Shown piece by piece: positions 6,715 to 48,910 of a DNA stretch of 64,000 bases. The first letter of the stretch is position 1, and every line of letters starts with the position of its first letter. Made by a program: the position numbers and the translations under genes. The DNA comes from Terrisporobacter glycolicus ATCC 14880 = DSM 1288 (GTDB lineage: Bacteria; Bacillota; Clostridia; Peptostreptococcales; Peptostreptococcaceae): positions 1,612,001-1,676,000 of the forward strand of contig NZ_CP117523.1 in assembly GCF_036812735.1 (NCBI RefSeq), read 5' to 3'. The notes below the pieces were generated by a model. The model saw nothing but the letters and a program-made list of their open reading frames with translations. It ran no database searches and was not told the DNA's origin.

Positions 6715-7461
6715 ATGGAAATATTAAATATAAAAAATTTAAAAAAAGTATATGGTAAAAAAGTAATTTCAACAGCTCTAAATAACATAAGTTTTGCTAT
6801 TGAGGATGGAGAGTTTGTGGGTATAATGGGGCCTAGTGGTAGTGGAAAAACTACACTTTTAAATCTTATCTCAACTATTGATAAACCAACATCAGGAACA
6901 ATAACATTAAGAGGAGAAAATATTTTAAACCTAAAAGGTGATGACCTAGCTTTATTTAGAAGAAGAGAACTTGGATTTGTATTTCAAGACTTTAATTTAT
7001 TAAATACATTAACAATTGGTGAAAATATGATTTTACCTTTAACCCTAGACAATGTAGATTTAAAAGAACAAGAGAATAGATTAAATAAAGTTTCAAAAAT
7101 ATTGGGAATTGAAAACTTATTAGATAAAAGGACTTATGAAGTTTCTGGAGGACAGGCTCAAAGAACTGCCATAGGAAGGGCATTAATTAATAATCCTACT
7201 TTATTACTGGCAGATGAACCAACGGGAAATCTTGATTCTGCATCAGCAAGAGATGTAATGGAGTATTTGGAGAAAATAAATAAAGAAGAAAAAGTAACTA
7301 CTATGATGGTTACTCATGATCCTTTAGCAGCTAGCTATTGTAATAGAATACTGTTTATAAAAGATGGAGAGATTTACAACGAAATTTATAAAGGTGAAAA
7401 TAGAATTCAATTTTATCAAGAAATAATAGATGTACTTTCTTTATTGGGAGGTACTAAATAA
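6715..7461 (+). CDS. BceA-like ABC transporter ATPase (antimicrobial peptide resistance)
   Basis: 248 aa, MacB/LolD-type ATPase. Walker A GPSGSGKTT near 42-50, Q-loop VFQDFNLL, signature VSGGQAQRTAIGRAL near 145, Walker B LLLADEPTGNLDS near 166, H-loop VTHD. Stop overlaps the ATG of the large permease (TAATG). In BceAB systems this pair frees cell-wall precursors from peptide antibiotics such as bacitracin and also activates the kinase. Specific drug not predictable. Confidence 0.92.
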   Translation: MEILNIKNLKKVYGKKVISTALNNISFAIEDGEFVGIMGPSGSGKTTLLNLISTIDKPTSGTITLRGENILNLKGDDLALFRRRELGFVFQDFNLLNTLTIGENMILPLTLDNVDLKEQENRLNKVSKILGIENLLDKRTYEVSGGQAQRTAIGRALINNPTLLLADEPTGNLDSASARDVMEYLEKINKEEKVTTMMVTHDPLAASYCNRILFIKDGEIYNEIYKGENRIQFYQEIIDVLSLLGGTK

Positions 7462-9359
7462 TGAACTTTGTCCAATTTGCATATAAAAATGTAAAGAGAA
7501 ACACTAAGTCTTATTTAGGATATTTCTTTAGCATTTTAATATCTTCAGCTTTGTTATTTTCCTTTAATATGTTTATAAATCATCCCAATTTAGACACTTC
7601 AACATTTGATGATTATTTACTGTTAACAATTAAAGTATGCTCGATTATTGTATATGTGTTTTTATTTTTCTTTGTGTTTTATTCAGTAAGTGTTTTTTTG
7701 AAAGGTAGAAGTAAAGAGTTTGGAATATTATACAGTTTGGGAATATCAAGTAAACAAGTTCAAAAGATGATTTTTATAGAAAACTTCATTATAAATGCAT
7801 TATCATCTACTCTTGGTGTAGCAGTAGGACTGATTTTTTCTAAGATAATTTTAATTGCCATATCAAATTTACTGGGAATAGAGCCACTAAAGTTTTATAT
7901 TCCAGCAATGTCAATGATAGCAACCATAATTTACTTTATGCTACTTTCACTATTAATATCTTTGTTTATTTCTTTTGTAGTAAAAGAAGATAAAGTTTTA
8001 AAATTGTTAAAGGGGAGTGAAACTCAAAGACCAGAGCCAAAGTTTTCTATATTACTTGTTATATTGTGTATAGCTCTTTTTGTATGGTCATATTATAAAG
8101 CGGTGACAGTTACAAAAATACAATTGGTAAATACCATAGCACCAGTAACTTTTATGACTATTATAGCAACATATTTATTGTTTTCTCAACTTAGTGTATT
8201 TATTATAAAAACTATAAAAAATAATAAAAAATTTTATAAGAAAAATACTAATATGTTATGCGTATCAAATTTGTATTATAAAATGAAAGACAATACAAGA
8301 ATGTTTTTCTTAATATGCATAACTTCTGCAGTTGCATTTACTGCCATAGGTGCAGTATATGCCTATTGGAAAGATCAAACTAGACAAGTTGAGTTGGCTT
8401 ATCCTCAAGCAATACATTTTGCAACAAATAAAAGTATGCTTGATAATTTGGATGAATTTGATAAAAAAGATTATATGGATAAAGTTGATTTGTTGGAAAA
8501 TTCATTGAAAGAAGAAAAGATTCCTTATTATAAAATAAGTGGAGAGATAAAAACTGTTTTTTCAAAGGATAAAGAAAAATCGGTTAAAATAATTAAAGAA
8601 TCCAAGTATAAAGAGTTTGCCGAAAAATTAAATCAACAAACAGTGAACTTTAGAAAAAATGAAGCAATATCACTAACTTTATTAGAAAATAAAAAAGTAA
8701 ATAAAAAAGTTGTAGTAGATGATAATAATTTAAAAGTTGCTACACAAGTAGAAAAGTCTGTTATGCCAGCTTATTATGATATATACGTGGTTAAAGATGA
8801 TTTATATGATGAAATAAATAATAACTGTGTAGTAGATGAATTTACTACTTTTGATACACAAAATTATATGAAAACTTTGAATATATGTAAAAACTTTGAA
8901 AATACTCATAAAGAAGAATTAAATAATGGAACGTATAAATTCTTATCAAAATCTTTTGTACTTGATTATGGAAAAACAATTTTTTCTACCTTGTTGTTTT
9001 TAACTATATTTATAGGGTTAATATTTTTCGTTACAGCAAGTAGTTTTTTATACAACAAGATTTATATGGATTGTCAGGAAGACAAAGAAAAGTATATGAA
9101 GCTTAATAAGATAGGTCTAACATATAAAGAAATAAGAAAAATTTCAACAATAGAAATAGGAATATTGTTTTTAGCACCCTATGTAATAGCTGTAATGCAC
9201 TCAACATTTGCCCTTTTGGCAGTTAAAAATTCCTTTAATATGGAAGTGGCTTCTTCAGCATATATAGTTATGGGAAGTTTCTTTATAGTTTTAATTATTT
9301 ACTTCTTAATAATAAGAAGAAATTATTTAAAGGAAATAAGGGAATATTTAAATAAGTAA
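7461..9359 (+). CDS. BceB-like ABC transporter permease
   Basis: 632 aa, the usual size of BceB permeases. Ten hydrophobic segments are expected: FtsX-like block at about 17-250, TM7 near 275-300, a large extracytoplasmic domain at about 305-510 (the drug-sensing region, poorly conserved), then three more helices near 515-535, 560-590 and 600-622. SKEFGILYSLGISSKQVQKMIFIEN is the conserved FtsX-family cytoplasmic segment. Coupled translationally to the ATPase. Forms the sensor-transporter complex with the BceS-like kinase encoded just upstream. Confidence 0.92.
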   Translation: MNFVQFAYKNVKRNTKSYLGYFFSILISSALLFSFNMFINHPNLDTSTFDDYLLLTIKVCSIIVYVFLFFFVFYSVSVFLKGRSKEFGILYSLGISSKQVQKMIFIENFIINALSSTLGVAVGLIFSKIILIAISNLLGIEPLKFYIPAMSMIATIIYFMLLSLLISLFISFVVKEDKVLKLLKGSETQRPEPKFSILLVILCIALFVWSYYKAVTVTKIQLVNTIAPVTFMTIIATYLLFSQLSVFIIKTIKNNKKFYKKNTNMLCVSNLYYKMKDNTRMFFLICITSAVAFTAIGAVYAYWKDQTRQVELAYPQAIHFATNKSMLDNLDEFDKKDYMDKVDLLENSLKEEKIPYYKISGEIKTVFSKDKEKSVKIIKESKYKEFAEKLNQQTVNFRKNEAISLTLLENKKVNKKVVVDDNNLKVATQVEKSVMPAYYDIYVVKDDLYDEINNNCVVDEFTTFDTQNYMKTLNICKNFENTHKEELNNGTYKFLSKSFVLDYGKTIFSTLLFLTIFIGLIFFVTASSFLYNKIYMDCQEDKEKYMKLNKIGLTYKEIRKISTIEIGILFLAPYVIAVMHSTFALLAVKNSFNMEVASSAYIVMGSFFIVLIIYFLIIRRNYLKEIREYLNK

Positions 9360-12752: not shown

Positions 12753-12770
12753 AGATAATATAAATTAAAT

Positions 12771-12808
12771 AAAAATAGCCAATGATTAAGGTCATTGGCT
12801 ATTTTTAT
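12771..12808 (+). terminator. Terminator after the small lipoprotein
   Basis: AAAAATAGCCAATGA / TCATTGGCTATTTTT, near perfect, with T tail. Confidence 0.9.
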
Positions 12809-12944
12809 TTATAATTTTCATATATATTGATTTTATTTATAAAGAGCATAGAACTATAAAAATTATCAATTTTTATAAATTATTTTGATATGTTACTCTT
12901 AGTAATGTGAAGAACTAAATATATAGAAAGGTCTAAAAAAACAT

Positions 12945-13814
12945 ATGGAGAAGATAGTTGATTTTAAATGTACTTATAATAATTCAGCAGGAATAAATGA
13001 AGAAGTGACGAGAAATTTAAAATTAAGTTTTCCCCAGGCCTATAAATATTGCGAGACAATGACCTTAATAGCTAAAGAACTAAAAAAACATGATAATGCA
13101 GCTTTTTGTGAACTACCTTTTTGTCACACTGTAGAAGGAGAAGCAATGGGTGGAATTATCAATTATGGCGATGAGAAGATAGGACCTAGGGCAAAGGAAT
13201 ATGTGTGCAAAAGTGCTGAGGATGTATTAAATCTTAAAAGTATTGATTTTACAAAGGGTAGAATATCAGAAGTATTAAAAGCCTGCACATGTTTAAGAAA
13301 TGAAGGACAAAATATTGTTTTAGAAGTTAGTGGACCATTTACAATTTTAAATGTTCTAATGGACGCCACACGTGCATTTAAGATTTTTAGAAAAGAACCA
13401 GAGAAGATGAAACAAATATTTGATAAATTTCAAAATGAAATCCTTAACTTTATAGAAGAAGGACAAAGAGCTGGAGCTAATTTAATTAGTTTTGCTGACT
13501 CTTCAGGTGGTGTTAATATTCTTGGGCCTAAAATGATGAAAGAGAGTGTGGAAATGTTTACATATCCTTTCTTGAAAAAGGCTGAAAAGATTATAGATGA
13601 TAAGACCATATTATTACTATGTCCAAAAACAACATTTGCACTTCTTGGAACAAATAAAGCAAGTTTATATGACATTGAATTATCAAAACCTATGAAATAT
13701 GGTGAGGGCTGTATTGAAGTTATAGGAAAAACAAAAATAGTAGGTCAAATGTGTATTAAAAATATAAATTACGAATTGACCGAAGGTAAGATTAAGGGAA
13801 TCAAACTAATATAA
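12945..13814 (+). CDS. short URO-D-fold protein of a corrinoid methyl-transfer operon, zinc ligands altered
   Basis: 289 aa, first gene of a five-gene operon. Similar in pattern to uroporphyrinogen-decarboxylase-like methyltransferases (MtaA/MtbA group): CHTVEGEAMGGIINYGDEKIGPRAKEYV, VSGPFTILNVLMD, GANLISFADSSGGVNILGP. It is shorter than its two paralogues downstream. Where they have H-x-C (HICGQ, HVCGE) this protein has LLLCPKT, losing the histidine zinc ligand. It may therefore be a substrate-side methyltransferase (MT1), or a non-catalytic partner, rather than a zinc-thiol methyltransferase; that is inference. GAAAGG lies upstream. Confidence 0.75.
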   Translation: MEKIVDFKCTYNNSAGINEEVTRNLKLSFPQAYKYCETMTLIAKELKKHDNAAFCELPFCHTVEGEAMGGIINYGDEKIGPRAKEYVCKSAEDVLNLKSIDFTKGRISEVLKACTCLRNEGQNIVLEVSGPFTILNVLMDATRAFKIFRKEPEKMKQIFDKFQNEILNFIEEGQRAGANLISFADSSGGVNILGPKMMKESVEMFTYPFLKKAEKIIDDKTILLLCPKTTFALLGTNKASLYDIELSKPMKYGEGCIEVIGKTKIVGQMCIKNINYELTEGKIKGIKLI

Positions 13815-13838
13815 AAAAATAAAATAGGGGGGACAATT

Positions 13839-14507
13839 ATGTCATCAAAAAAAGAACTTTTAAAAAAATTAGCTGAGTGTGTAGTTGAAATGGAAGACGA
13901 AGAAGTGGTGGATGTTGCCAAAGAATATTTAAATGAAGGACATTCAGCTTTTGATGGAATAATGGATGGATTAGTTGAGGGAATGAATGAAGCAAGTAAG
14001 CTTTATGATGAAGAAGAATATTTTGTAACTGATGTATTGTTGTGTTCAGATGCCATGTATGCAGGGCTAGATGTCCTAAGACCTCATTTACCAGAACAAG
14101 AAGAAGATGCAAAAGTAAAAGGTGTTATAGGAGTTGTTGAAGGAGATACACATGACATAGGCAAAAACTTAGTTAGAATTATGTTTGAAACTGCTGGCTT
14201 TGAAATGCATGATTTAGGAAGAGATGTGGATCTAAAATCTTTTGTGAAAAAAGTAAAAGAAACAAATGCATCACTTCTTTGTATGTCAACATTAATGACA
14301 ACAACTATGGGTGGAATGAAAACAGTTATTGACATGTTAAATGAAGAAGGAATAAGAGATAATGTTACAGTTATGGTTGGAGGAAGTCCTATTTCACAAA
14401 AATATGCAAATGAAATAGGTGCAGATGGATATTCAAGTAATGCAGTTGAAGCAGTAAAAGTTGCCAAAGAGCTTCTACATGCTAAGAACTTAGTAAATGC
14501 TATTTAA
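13839..14507 (+). CDS. corrinoid (B12-binding) methyl-carrier protein
   Basis: 222 aa, the normal size of MtaC/MtbC/MtmC-type corrinoid proteins. Residues 1-90 are the helical cap domain. The C-terminal Rossmann B12 domain has EGDTHDIGKN (DxHxxG, His is the lower axial cobalt ligand) near residue 105, the CMSTLMTTTMGGMK loop and GGSPIS near 182. It carries the methyl group as methyl-Co(III) between a donor-specific methyltransferase and an acceptor methyltransferase. Strong GGGGGG before the start. Sits between two URO-D-fold genes. Confidence 0.93.
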   Translation: MSSKKELLKKLAECVVEMEDEEVVDVAKEYLNEGHSAFDGIMDGLVEGMNEASKLYDEEEYFVTDVLLCSDAMYAGLDVLRPHLPEQEEDAKVKGVIGVVEGDTHDIGKNLVRIMFETAGFEMHDLGRDVDLKSFVKKVKETNASLLCMSTLMTTTMGGMKTVIDMLNEEGIRDNVTVMVGGSPISQKYANEIGADGYSSNAVEAVKVAKELLHAKNLVNAI

Positions 14508-14522
14508 AATGAGGTTGATAAA

Positions 14523-15554
14523 ATGATTACACCAAAAGAGAGAATTAAAAAAGTATTTAATAATGAAGAAGTTGATAGACCGCCTTGCATATGTCCAGGT
14601 GGTATGATGAACATGATAACAACAGATTTAATGGATAGATCGAATGTATTTTGGCCAAATGCACACTTAAATGGAGAAAAAATGGCTGAACTTGCCAGTG
14701 CAAACTATGAAAATGGGTGTTTTGAAAATTATGGAGTTCCTTTTTGTATGACTATAGAAGCTGAAGCTATGGGAGCAAAAGTAACTTTAGGAACAAAAGA
14801 ATATGAACCACATGTAATTGAATATGCCATAAATAGTGTGGACGAATACGAAAATTTAAAAGAAATGAATATGCAAGAAGGCAGAGCAAAAGTAGTATTA
14901 GATGCTATAAAAATTTTAAAATCAAAAGGCAACAATGTACCTATAATAGGAAATATTACAGGACCTATAAGTACAGCCAGTTCTCTTATGGAGCCTGTTG
15001 TTTTTTATAAAGAATTGAGAAAAAAAAATAAAAAAGCTCATGAATTTATGTCATTCGTTACAGATGAAATTATTAATTTTGCTAGAGCTCAAATAGATGC
15101 AGGAGCAGATATAATTGCCATCTCTGACCCAAGTGGAAGTGGAGAAATTTTAGGACCAAGAGACTTTGAACAATTTGCAGTAAAATATATAAATAAAGTA
15201 GTTCATAGTTTGCAAGAAGAAAAAATAGGAACTATTGTACATATTTGTGGTCAAATGAGAAGTGTTTACAAAGAAGTAAATATGATACAAAGTAATGCTC
15301 TTAGTTTTGACTCAGTAGTTTCCATGAAAAATGCTAGAGCTAATTTGCCAAATAGAATTCTTATGGGAAATGTAAGTACATATACATTAGAATTTGGAAG
15401 TCCAGATAAAATTTCATTGCTAACTAACAAATGTGTGAAAGATGGATCAAATATTATATCACCAGCATGTGGACTTGGAACAAAATCTCCACTTAAAAAT
15501 ATACAGTCTATTTTAAGTACATTAAACACAGAGGAGATTGAAATAAATGTGTAA
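14523..15554 (+). CDS. URO-D-fold corrinoid methyltransferase (MtaA/MtbA-like)
   Basis: 343 aa. Starts MITPKERIKKVFNNEEVDRPPCICPG, typical of the MtaA/MtbA/URO-D family. The zinc site is visible: HICGQ near 240 (His-x-Cys) with a distal Cys in SPACGLGTKSPLKNI near 316. Family members move the methyl group between a corrinoid protein and a thiol, or in some bacterial systems act on methoxylated substrates. Overlaps the next gene by eight bases. Coenzyme M is not normally made by Clostridia, so the actual acceptor or donor is open. Confidence 0.87.
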   Translation: MITPKERIKKVFNNEEVDRPPCICPGGMMNMITTDLMDRSNVFWPNAHLNGEKMAELASANYENGCFENYGVPFCMTIEAEAMGAKVTLGTKEYEPHVIEYAINSVDEYENLKEMNMQEGRAKVVLDAIKILKSKGNNVPIIGNITGPISTASSLMEPVVFYKELRKKNKKAHEFMSFVTDEIINFARAQIDAGADIIAISDPSGSGEILGPRDFEQFAVKYINKVVHSLQEEKIGTIVHICGQMRSVYKEVNMIQSNALSFDSVVSMKNARANLPNRILMGNVSTYTLEFGSPDKISLLTNKCVKDGSNIISPACGLGTKSPLKNIQSILSTLNTEEIEINV

Positions 15555-17322
15555 AATTTTCATAGAAAAAGAAAATAAAACATTAATGGATGTTTTGTTA
15601 GATGAAAATATATTTGTTGATAATGCTTGTAATGGTAAAGGTGTTTGTGGCAAATGTAAAATTAAGCTTATTTCTGGGAATTTGGGAGAATTAAGTGAAA
15701 CAGAGAAAAAACTTTTATCACAAGAAGAAATTAATGATAATATACGTCTATCTTGTTTAGTAAAACCAAAAGAAGATATAAAAATAGAATTATTACAAAA
15801 AGAGAGAAAACATAAAGTATTAAGCAGTGGGTATATGCCAAAGTTTCAAGTTAATCCTTCCATACATAAAAAATTAATAAGTCTTGAAAAATCAACTTTG
15901 GAAAATCAAAGACCTTTGGAAAATGAAATTTTGAGACAATTAAATATTGATAAATTAGACTGGAAATTGTTAAAAGAAATAAAATCACAGGATGAAAAAA
16001 TAACAGCAGTTTTTAATAATGATGAAGTAATTTATATGGAAAAAAATGATACAAGAGATAAAATATATGGCGTGATTATGGATATAGGAACAACAACAGT
16101 AGTTACATCCTTAGTAGATATAAATTCTGGTGCAGAACTATGTGTTGAATCCATGATTAATGTACAAAAACAGTATGGATTAGATGTATTAACTAGGATT
16201 ACATATGAAGTGGAAAATGAAGAAGATGGGGTTGAAAATTTACAAAAAGCTATAGTAGCATCTATAAATGAAATGATAGAAAAGTTATGCAAAAAAGCAA
16301 ATGTAAATAAAAAACATATATACGAAATTACTGTGGCAGCCAACTGCACCATGATGCATATGTTGCTTGGAATAGACGCTAAATCTATTGGGAAATCACC
16401 ATTTGCACCTATATTTACTACTTCTAAAAATGTTTTAGCAAAAGATATAGGATTATTAGCTTGTGAGGAAGCAAGACTTTATTGTCTGCCTTCTGTATCT
16501 GCATATATAGGAGCTGATATAGTAGCAGGGGCTTATGTATGTGAATTAAATAAAACAGATGAAGATGTATTATTTATAGATATAGGAACAAACGGGGAAA
16601 TCGTTCTATCAAACAAAGGTAATCTTTTATCTTGTTCTTGTGCTGCAGGGCCAGCACTAGAAGGAATGAATATTAGTTGTGGAATGAGAGCAGCTAATGG
16701 AGCCATAGAAGATGTAATTATTAATGAAGAAGAAAATGTAATAAAGGTTATAGGAGAAGAAAAACCTATAGGAATATGTGGAAGTGGAATCTTAGCTGTA
16801 GTAAAAGAACTATTAAAAACAGGAATTGTAAGAGATAATGGTGCTTTTATTAAGCTAGAAAAATTAGAAGAAGATGATTATCGATTAAATAGAATACAAA
16901 TTAATAATAAAAAAAGAGAATTTATACTTTATGATGATAATAAAAATAAACTGTTGATCACACAAGGTGATATTAGACAAGTCCAGCTGGCAAAGGGAGC
17001 TATACTTTCTGGTTTTTATGCATTACTTAAAAAAGCTAATATTGAAATGAAAGACTTGAAAAAAGTAATGATAGCAGGTCAATTTGGAGCTCATGTTAGT
17101 GTGGACAGCTTAGTTGGAACAGGAATTTTACCAATGGAAGTAAAAGAAAAAATAGTTTATGTAGGTAACTCTTCAAAAACAGGAGCCTATATGGCATTAA
17201 TGTCTAAGGAAGCTAAAGAAGATATGGAATTATTATCTAAAAATATGGAATATATGGAGCTTGGAGCATCAGAAGGTTATGAAAGGTTATTTTCTAGTTG
17301 TTTAAAGTTTCCATCTAACTAA
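15547..17322 (+). CDS. reductive activator of corrinoid proteins (2Fe-2S plus ASKHA domain, RACo-like)
   Basis: 591 aa. N-terminal [2Fe-2S] ferredoxin-type domain with Cys28-x5-Cys34-x2-Cys37 and a fourth Cys in RLSCLVK near 75. After a linker, residues about 165-580 form the DUF4445/ASKHA ATPase domain: phosphate loops DIGTTTVVTSLVD and DIGTNGEIVLSN, CSCAAGPALEGMNISCGMRA, GICGSGILAVV. Such proteins use ATP to push an electron onto inactive Co(II) corrinoid, restoring Co(I). Start ATG has GAGGAG upstream and lies inside the end of the preceding gene. The Cys pattern is that of RACo, not of the 4Fe-4S RamA. Confidence 0.92.
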   Translation: MCKIFIEKENKTLMDVLLDENIFVDNACNGKGVCGKCKIKLISGNLGELSETEKKLLSQEEINDNIRLSCLVKPKEDIKIELLQKERKHKVLSSGYMPKFQVNPSIHKKLISLEKSTLENQRPLENEILRQLNIDKLDWKLLKEIKSQDEKITAVFNNDEVIYMEKNDTRDKIYGVIMDIGTTTVVTSLVDINSGAELCVESMINVQKQYGLDVLTRITYEVENEEDGVENLQKAIVASINEMIEKLCKKANVNKKHIYEITVAANCTMMHMLLGIDAKSIGKSPFAPIFTTSKNVLAKDIGLLACEEARLYCLPSVSAYIGADIVAGAYVCELNKTDEDVLFIDIGTNGEIVLSNKGNLLSCSCAAGPALEGMNISCGMRAANGAIEDVIINEEENVIKVIGEEKPIGICGSGILAVVKELLKTGIVRDNGAFIKLEKLEEDDYRLNRIQINNKKREFILYDDNKNKLLITQGDIRQVQLAKGAILSGFYALLKKANIEMKDLKKVMIAGQFGAHVSVDSLVGTGILPMEVKEKIVYVGNSSKTGAYMALMSKEAKEDMELLSKNMEYMELGASEGYERLFSSCLKFPSN

Positions 17323-17352
17323 TTATAAAATTATTGAACTGGGGGGATTACA

Positions 17353-18450
17353 ATGCATAAAGATGATCAAATGACTCCTAAGGAAAGACTAGCAGGATTT
17401 TTTAGTGGAAAAGAAATAGATAGAATACCAGCCCTACCATTTGTAACATCAGTATCAGGAAGAGTAGCTGGAATCACACATAAAGAAAAAAGAAGTTGTG
17501 CTAAAAACCAAGCTCAGGCACAAATAGCTTGTTATGAGAGATTTGGAAATGATAGTATTTCCATAGAGTATGGACTTCATGGCGTTGGTATTGCCTTAGG
17601 TAGTAAAACTAATGATCCAGAAGATGGAGTTCCAGCCATAATAGAGCATTATTTAAAAAATCTTAAAGATTTAAGTTCTTTAGATTTATCAAAAATAGAA
17701 AGAAAAAATGATCCATGGTATCAATTAAATTATGATGCGTATCATATTTGTATGGAGAAATATGGACATGAAGTTGGAGCATCTTTAAGTATTCATGGAC
17801 CAATAACGGCAGCTGGAAGTATTTATCCTGTGGAAAAATTATTAAGATCCATAAGAAAAGAACCTGAAAAAGTTCATGAATTATTAAGATTTAGTACGGA
17901 TGCCACTAAAATAGTAATGAAAGATTTCTTAGAAGCAGGAGCGGGAATATCTTTGTGTGATCCAATAGCTTCAGGAACACTAATAGATAAGAAAACTTAT
18001 AGAGACTTTGTTCTTCCATATACAAAAGAAATAGTAGATTATGTACATAGTTTTGGAAAATCCCTTACATATCATGTTTGTGGAGAAACTTCTCATATGA
18101 CTTTGGACTTAGTGGAAAGTGGTTGTAATATGTTAAGTATAGACAATAGAGTTAGTTTAGTTGATACAAAAAAACTTGTGGGAGACAGACTTCCTATTGT
18201 TGGAAATGTGGATCCAGTAGAAGTAATGATGCTTGGTAGTGTAGAAGATGTTTATGCAGGTGTAAAAAAATGCATAGAGGAGGGGTATGACAGTCCAAAG
18301 GGATATTTGCTAAGTACAGGATGTGGTATACCTATTAACTCTCCTATAGAAAATATAGATGCATTTATGGCAGCTGCAAGAAAATATGGTAAGTGGCCAA
18401 TAAATAGTGATAACTTTAATGAAGAAATATTAGCTAAATCAACTTTATAA
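17353..18450 (+). CDS. URO-D-fold corrinoid methyltransferase (MtaA/MtbA-like), last gene of operon
   Basis: 365 aa. MTPKERLAGFFSGKEIDRIPALPFV at the N terminus, SIHGPITAAGS, SLCDPIASGTLID, zinc motif HVCGE near 235 and a distal Cys in STGCGIPINSPIENI near 330. A paralogue of the 343-aa protein two genes upstream. GGGGGG ribosome site, 30 bases after the activator gene. Having two intact zinc-type members plus one altered member with a single corrinoid protein suggests donor-side and acceptor-side roles are split among them; which is which cannot be read from the sequence. Confidence 0.87.
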   Translation: MHKDDQMTPKERLAGFFSGKEIDRIPALPFVTSVSGRVAGITHKEKRSCAKNQAQAQIACYERFGNDSISIEYGLHGVGIALGSKTNDPEDGVPAIIEHYLKNLKDLSSLDLSKIERKNDPWYQLNYDAYHICMEKYGHEVGASLSIHGPITAAGSIYPVEKLLRSIRKEPEKVHELLRFSTDATKIVMKDFLEAGAGISLCDPIASGTLIDKKTYRDFVLPYTKEIVDYVHSFGKSLTYHVCGETSHMTLDLVESGCNMLSIDNRVSLVDTKKLVGDRLPIVGNVDPVEVMMLGSVEDVYAGVKKCIEEGYDSPKGYLLSTGCGIPINSPIENIDAFMAAARKYGKWPINSDNFNEEILAKSTL

Positions 18451-18477: not shown

Positions 18478-18522
18478 GCTACTGTAGATAAATTTATTAC
18501 AAATAAGTTTATTTATAGTAGC
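18478..18522. terminator. Convergent hairpin between the corrinoid operon and the minus-strand ABC operon
   Basis: GCTACTGTAGATAAATTTATT pairs imperfectly with ATAAGTTTATTTATAGTAGC around ACAA. The U tail is poor on both strands, so it is a weaker terminator call that could serve both directions. Confidence 0.5.
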
Positions 18523-48733: not shown

Positions 48734-48749
48734 GGTATTACAAGTTAAA

Positions 48750-48910
48750 AAATCGGTAGGTGAGGTTACCTTAGGGATACGGGTTGATGCCGCGAAGTAG
48801 TGGAAACACTATTAGATGGTTAGCAGGACACATCGGAAAAAGAAGGTGTATTCTAATTCAATTACATTGCCCTAAGAAGCTAAAGCTTGAACGAGAATTA
48901 TTAATATATT
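48750..48910 (+). ncRNA. M-box (ykoK) magnesium riboswitch aptamer
   Basis: Conserved M-box segments in order: GGTAGGTGAGGTTACC (48755-48770), GGGATACGGGTTGATGCCGC (48774-48793), GAAGTAG-TGGAAACACTATTA, then the long variable arm. It senses Mg2+ and in high Mg2+ favours the terminator that follows. The magnesium pump gene mgtA lies downstream with no other promoter consensus as good as this one. Exact 3' boundary of the aptamer is approximate. Confidence 0.88.

Follow-up and report, generated by a model that had tools for sequence, protein, structure and literature searches.

We analysed a window of 64,000 nucleotides from the chromosome of Terrisporobacter glycolicus DSM 1288, whose genome consists of a chromosome of 4,039,277 bases and a plasmid, pTG1, of 21,319 bases (PMC10564238). 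Between positions 12945 and 18450 of this window the ORF listing contains five ORFs, all on one strand (see the table). They are spaced by 24, 15, -8 and 30 bases, and purine-rich sequences resembling ribosome-binding sites precede most of them. The carrier includes the cobalamin motif DTHDIG (of the form DxHxxG) and the reactivase the motif CNGKGVCGKC. Bounded by two terminator-like hairpins, the operon is a real, conserved unit. Control by a cobalamin or SAM riboswitch was considered and dropped, since an Rfam scan gave no match around the operon, and none at seven loci related to it. Elsewhere in the window, an M-box (magnesium) riboswitch at 48745-48905 is the sole match above the Rfam gathering threshold.

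Table. Features of the methyl-transfer operon and its borders (window positions)
Feature	Position	Strand	Evidence
Upstream hairpin resembling a bidirectional terminator	12766..12811	.	20-pair stem, T-rich tails on both strands
UroD1, Mlp1-type URO-D-fold protein, 289 aa	12945..13814	+	Pfam URO-D 5.6e-22
Corrinoid (methyl-carrier) protein, 222 aa	13839..14507	+	Pfam B12-binding and B12-binding_2
UroD2, Mlp3-type methyltransferase, 343 aa	14523..15554	+	Pfam URO-D 2.3e-83
RACo/Ram-type corrinoid reductive activase, 591 aa, 2Fe-2S and ASKHA	15547..17322	+	RACo_C_ter 1e-76, Raco_middle 7e-61, Fer2 1e-8
UroD3, Mlp2-type methyltransferase, 365 aa	17353..18450	+	Pfam URO-D 7.1e-68
Terminator-like hairpin 3' of the last gene	18478..18522	+	

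The ORFs and their Pfam domains bear out the gene content described in the original prediction (a carrier, a 2Fe-2S/ASKHA reactivase and three URO-D proteins) and, as it stated, MttB, MtaB, MtmB and a pterin methyltransferase are absent from the operon. It had argued that URO-D-fold proteins must deal with donor and acceptor alike, unless the acceptor is to be sought elsewhere. This is supported by our results, and Kountz & Balskus reason in the same way (PMC10418091). Its further proposal, that the operon encodes an undescribed pathway, does not hold: the cluster type was already published in 2023 as the type 1 mlp gene cluster, composed of Mlp1, Mlp2, Mlp3, a carrier and Ram (PMC10418091).

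In that work a cluster is defined by at least two Mlps together with a carrier and Ram, encoded in one direction with gaps of less than 2 kb and without a folate methylase within 20 kb (PMC10418091). The T. glycolicus operon shows all four properties: the required genes are present, no divergent gene lies between them, every gap is below 2 kb and the nearest PF00809 match is about 96 kb from the operon. Orthologs of both Mlp2 and Mlp3, which define type 1, were recognised from the tree, sequence identity and gene order by comparison with Clostridium drakei. By sequence, UroD1 is Mlp1, UroD3 is Mlp2 and UroD2 is Mlp3; this numbering rests on the C. drakei counterparts, gene order and tree shape. 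Identities to the C. drakei proteins are 63% (UroD1), 56% (UroD3), 69% (carrier), 68% (UroD2) and 66% (RACo). In a quick tree of 90 URO-D proteins with SH-aLRT supports, UroD1 falls inside the Mlp1 clade (support 100) and UroD2 inside the Mlp3 clade (support 92), while UroD3 groups with C. drakei Mlp2 in a separate clade (support 93; inner clade 99). UroD1 and UroD2 join (SH-aLRT 96) apart from UroD3, in agreement with the published topology, in which Mlp1 and Mlp3 are separated from Mlp2 (PMC10418091). The original prediction had itself named the clear placement of one of the three proteins in a known substrate-specific clade, with a matching neighbourhood elsewhere, as the outcome that would speak against it. 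This is largely what was found, since all three proteins lie in named clades and the neighbourhood recurs, for example in C. drakei.

The published C. ljungdahlii cluster has the order Mlp1-Mlp2-carrier-Mlp3-Ram, and C. drakei is named as another carrier of the cluster (PMC10418091). The C. drakei locus (CobW-UroD1-UroD3-carrier-UroD2-RACo) shows this order with an additional CobW gene. The T. glycolicus operon shares with these two clusters the three Mlps, carrier and Ram on one strand, the absence of a folate methylase and a His-Cys-Cys site in Mlp2 and Mlp3. It differs in its order (Mlp1-carrier-Mlp3-Ram-Mlp2), in the lack of an adjacent COG0523 gene and in the loss of the zinc-site His from Mlp1. 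We place the operon among the type 1 mlp gene clusters and consider it probable that it works as a three-methyltransferase, one-carrier system for sulfur or selenium methyl transfer, likely recovering selenium from methylated forms.

The five-gene set is not a chance assembly. Of 71 genomes from the host's family, 31 have matches to UroD1 and 32 have matches to UroD3, with 31 genomes common to both (Fisher p = 2.5e-19, a value that is indicative only as the genomes are related); close relatives of UroD2 occur in 28 of the 71. A scan of a genome collection with Mlp3 as query provided 80 named loci, 49 of them full-length. The fetched neighbourhoods include UroD3, carrier, UroD2, RACo, UroD1 and often a COG0523/CobW GTPase, in variable order. 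All five classes lie within about 21 kb in 38 of the 49 full-length loci, and an Mlp2-type protein, Mlp3, carrier and activase in 41 (the same 38 having Mlp1 too), counts that are upper estimates because the 'Mlp2-type' profile label is broad. The nearest relatives of the cluster are those of T. mayombei (proteins 95-99% identical) and T. petrolearius. Neighbours at some related clusters include methionine-type ABC genes (MetNIQ-like), NhaC permeases, a double-cubane-type HGD-D protein and DUF1638. Clusters of this type are present in many anaerobes of gut, environmental and industrial origin, where they probably feed or recover selenium and sulfur methyl compounds.

The COG0523/CobW GTPase gene adjoins many mlp clusters (loci L089, L093-L098, L110, L113-L130 and others; 21 of the 49 full-length loci). 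Its product is likely a zinc or cobalt metallochaperone. The proximity of COG0523 proteins to corrinoid methyltransferases, including in Clostridium botulinum, was pointed out in 2009 (PMC2770081).

For all three URO-D proteins the closest solved structure by sequence is MtaA (4AY7), with identities of 33.2% for UroD2 (1.7e-51), 26.5% for UroD3 and 25.6% for UroD1 (over 203 aa). UroD2 passes the NCBIfam models NF004889 ('methylcobalamin:coenzyme M methyltransferase'; 440 bits, cut-off 244) and TIGR01463 (MtaA/CmuA; 247, cut-off 235). It resembles the MtaA/MtbA methylcobamide:coenzyme M methyltransferases in fold, zinc ligands and the 33% identity, but remains under their equivalog cut-offs (MtaA: 245, cut-off 400; MtbA: 240, cut-off 600). 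The archaea Methanococcus voltae and M. maripaludis have a methyl-selenide system, SdmABC, that is similar in combining a carrier with Mlp-type URO-D methyltransferases and in being tied to dimethylselenide use. However, its presumed acceptor is coenzyme M, which is not expected in T. glycolicus.

The zinc ligands, a feature that the original prediction had missed, are informative about the chemistry. UroD2 carries H240, C242 and C316, and UroD3 likewise has His-Cys-Cys; UroD1 has Leu-Cys-Cys, a position at which Mlp1 may vary. The His-Cys-Cys set was found in 102 of 102 sampled Mlp2 (UroD3-type) and 95 of 95 sampled Mlp3 (UroD2-type) proteins. As these ligands are tied to sulfur and selenium chemistry (PMC10418091), the residues seen in Mlp2 and Mlp3 point towards chemistry on S/Se and away from O or N.

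This bears directly on whether the operon might be an aromatic O-demethylase operon of the OdmB, VdmB or MtvB kind. These O-demethylases and the chloromethane dehalogenase CdmB do have a URO-D fold and work with a carrier plus an activase, but they have different zinc ligands or none, and they have their own folate methyltransferase. Zinc O-demethylases typically show the motif E-x14-E-x20-H. The motif is absent from the proteins of the operon, in which Mlp2 and Mlp3 retain His-Cys-Cys and not carboxylate ligands. Moreover, the nearest solved structure is MtaA, matches to the O-demethylase-like CdmB being weak or absent, and the dedicated folate methyltransferase expected beside carrier and MT I is missing. 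We therefore rejected an O-demethylase identity, which we regard as highly improbable, on the zinc ligands, nearest structures and missing folate partner.

The third URO-D protein requires separate consideration. UroD1 retains C226 and C270 and carries Leu224 in place of the zinc-site His. In the alignment to MtaA its second Cys (GQMC) falls on the strand that precedes the canonical third ligand, and the C-terminal region that would contain this ligand is missing. The His is replaced, usually by Leu, in 71 of 89 sampled Mlp1 proteins (the window copy included), with both Cys invariant; the fraction is not a population estimate because the sample is enriched for relatives of the window UroD1. 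C9 and C55 are near-invariant among Mlp1 proteins, and His61 is kept in 65 of the 71 His-less proteins compared with 6 of the 18 others. Truncation or frameshifting of UroD1 was ruled out, as dozens of genomes encode homologues of 289 aa that begin and end at the same points. The AlphaFold model of UroD1 is of high confidence (pLDDT 94, pTM 0.92) and has MtaA as its best PDB match, with a TM-score of 0.65 of query length.

The published work mentions only 'several' Mlp1 exceptions to the zinc ligands (PMC10418091), and the systematic remodelling of Mlp1 is our main addition to that description. We suggest tentatively that Mlp1 is not simply a third copy: with its shortened URO-D barrel and rebuilt zinc site, it might bind metal differently and perform a step that Mlp2 and Mlp3 cannot (for example, use of a different methyl donor, or a selenide or thiol hand-over). 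The T. glycolicus copy is from the type strain of a cultured acetogen with Sec machinery, and the systematic loss of the zinc His offers a concrete, testable point.

For the T. glycolicus operon we infer the substrate, acceptor and direction, together with the role of Mlp1, by analogy. Mlp2 (UroD3), through its Zn-His-Cys-Cys site, would bind a methylated selenol or thiol (methylselenol, dimethylselenide or another Se- or S-methyl compound) and pass the methyl group to the Co(I) form of the corrinoid protein, freeing selenide or thiol. Mlp3 (UroD2), which is MtaA-like and also Zn-His-Cys-Cys, would then hand the carrier's methyl group on to an acceptor, for which a thiol is the most likely candidate. 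Another option is that a folate methyltransferase encoded elsewhere in the genome takes it from the carrier. The 2Fe-2S/ASKHA protein is predicted to re-reduce carrier accidentally oxidised to Co(II), and Mlp1 may serve a third methylated compound or act in support of the others. For this acetogen, which makes selenoproteins, the cycle would likely serve to recover selenium from methylated forms.

Either a thiol or a folate could act as acceptor. The zinc site of Mlp3 speaks for a thiol, reached through this protein, and so do species that have the cluster but no folate methylases elsewhere, namely C. sporogenes and H. thermocellum (PMC10418091). Were the methyl group instead to end on tetrahydrofolate through an unlinked methyltransferase, the operon would feed the Wood-Ljungdahl pathway, a proposal that bears on the acceptor alone and would fit either donor. 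The host has candidate enzymes that the original prediction had overlooked: AcsE within CODH/ACS, two short MetH-like proteins with a pterin domain and the pterin methyltransferase of an MttB cluster at 920 kb. In addition, the C. drakei cluster is induced on H2+CO2 (PMC10418091). On the other hand, the pterin-binding proteins found by a profile search of the genome all lie more than 95 kb from the operon, and within the fetched DNA a pterin-methyltransferase homologue occurs in only one of the 80 named loci, where it is antiparallel. With these observations and the two species lacking folate methylases set against it, we consider a folate acceptor unlikely.

The MttB-type system, which was likewise missed in the original prediction, lies outside the window at about 915,600-924,900 of the chromosome (L020:3589-12880) and is complete. 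Besides two carriers and a pterin methyltransferase of its own, it comprises BCCT transporters, an activase, DUF1638 and a PocR-like regulator. Its MttB-family protein reads without an internal stop (the non-pyrrolysine type).

Whether selenium or sulfur carries the methyl group can be approached through the systems already studied. Mlp2 of C. ljungdahlii has methylcobalamin:selenide activity, which was slow and observed in the reverse direction with free methylcobalamin (PMC10418091). The sdm genes of M. voltae are required for dimethylselenide use (as cited in PMC10418091), and the SdmABC-type locus of M. maripaludis is strongly induced under selenium depletion (PMC11097638). The mlp clusters have been linked to the metabolism of methyl-selenium, and a minority of them to that of methyl-sulfur; the sulfur-type clusters are tied to genomes that lack selenium traits and encode MarHDK homologues (PMC10418091). 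In T. glycolicus, SelA, SelB, SelD and a LysR regulator of selenium metabolism are all encoded on the 21-kb plasmid. Searches of the genome gave no second SelA or SelD and no PF00148 match (nitrogenase-like, MarHDK). The methyl-selenium branch thus fits best, given the presence of SelA, SelB and SelD, the absence of MarHDK and the folate methyl acceptors elsewhere in the genome. The combination of Sec machinery without MarHDK is a weak test, however: SelA occurs in 68 of the 71 family genomes, so that the presence of selenium machinery alongside the cluster hardly discriminates within this family and was dropped as a strong test. No selenium gene adjoins the operon.

A cluster of the same family could act instead on methyl-sulfur, in methionine salvage or on methylthio compounds, with selenium incidental. 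Its zinc sites are of the thiol type, methyl-sulfur is an equally good fit for the methionine ABC genes (MetNIQ-like) and the NhaC permeases next to some related clusters, and non-selenium clusters form the published minority (PMC10418091). The host nevertheless has SelA, SelB and SelD and is without a PF00148 match, unlike the published sulfur-type genomes, and we regard a sulfur role as doubtful next to methyl-selenium transfer.

The plasmid that carries SelA, SelD, SelB and proline reductase genes is conserved across Terrisporobacter, as already published (PMC10564238). Outside the window, at about 1,517,500-1,520,000 of the chromosome (L021:5497-6567 and 6841-8016), a second, solo Mlp2, 77% identical to UroD3, is located beside an NhaC-family permease. 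Similar Mlp2-NhaC pairs also occur within the clusters of relatives (L097 and L106).
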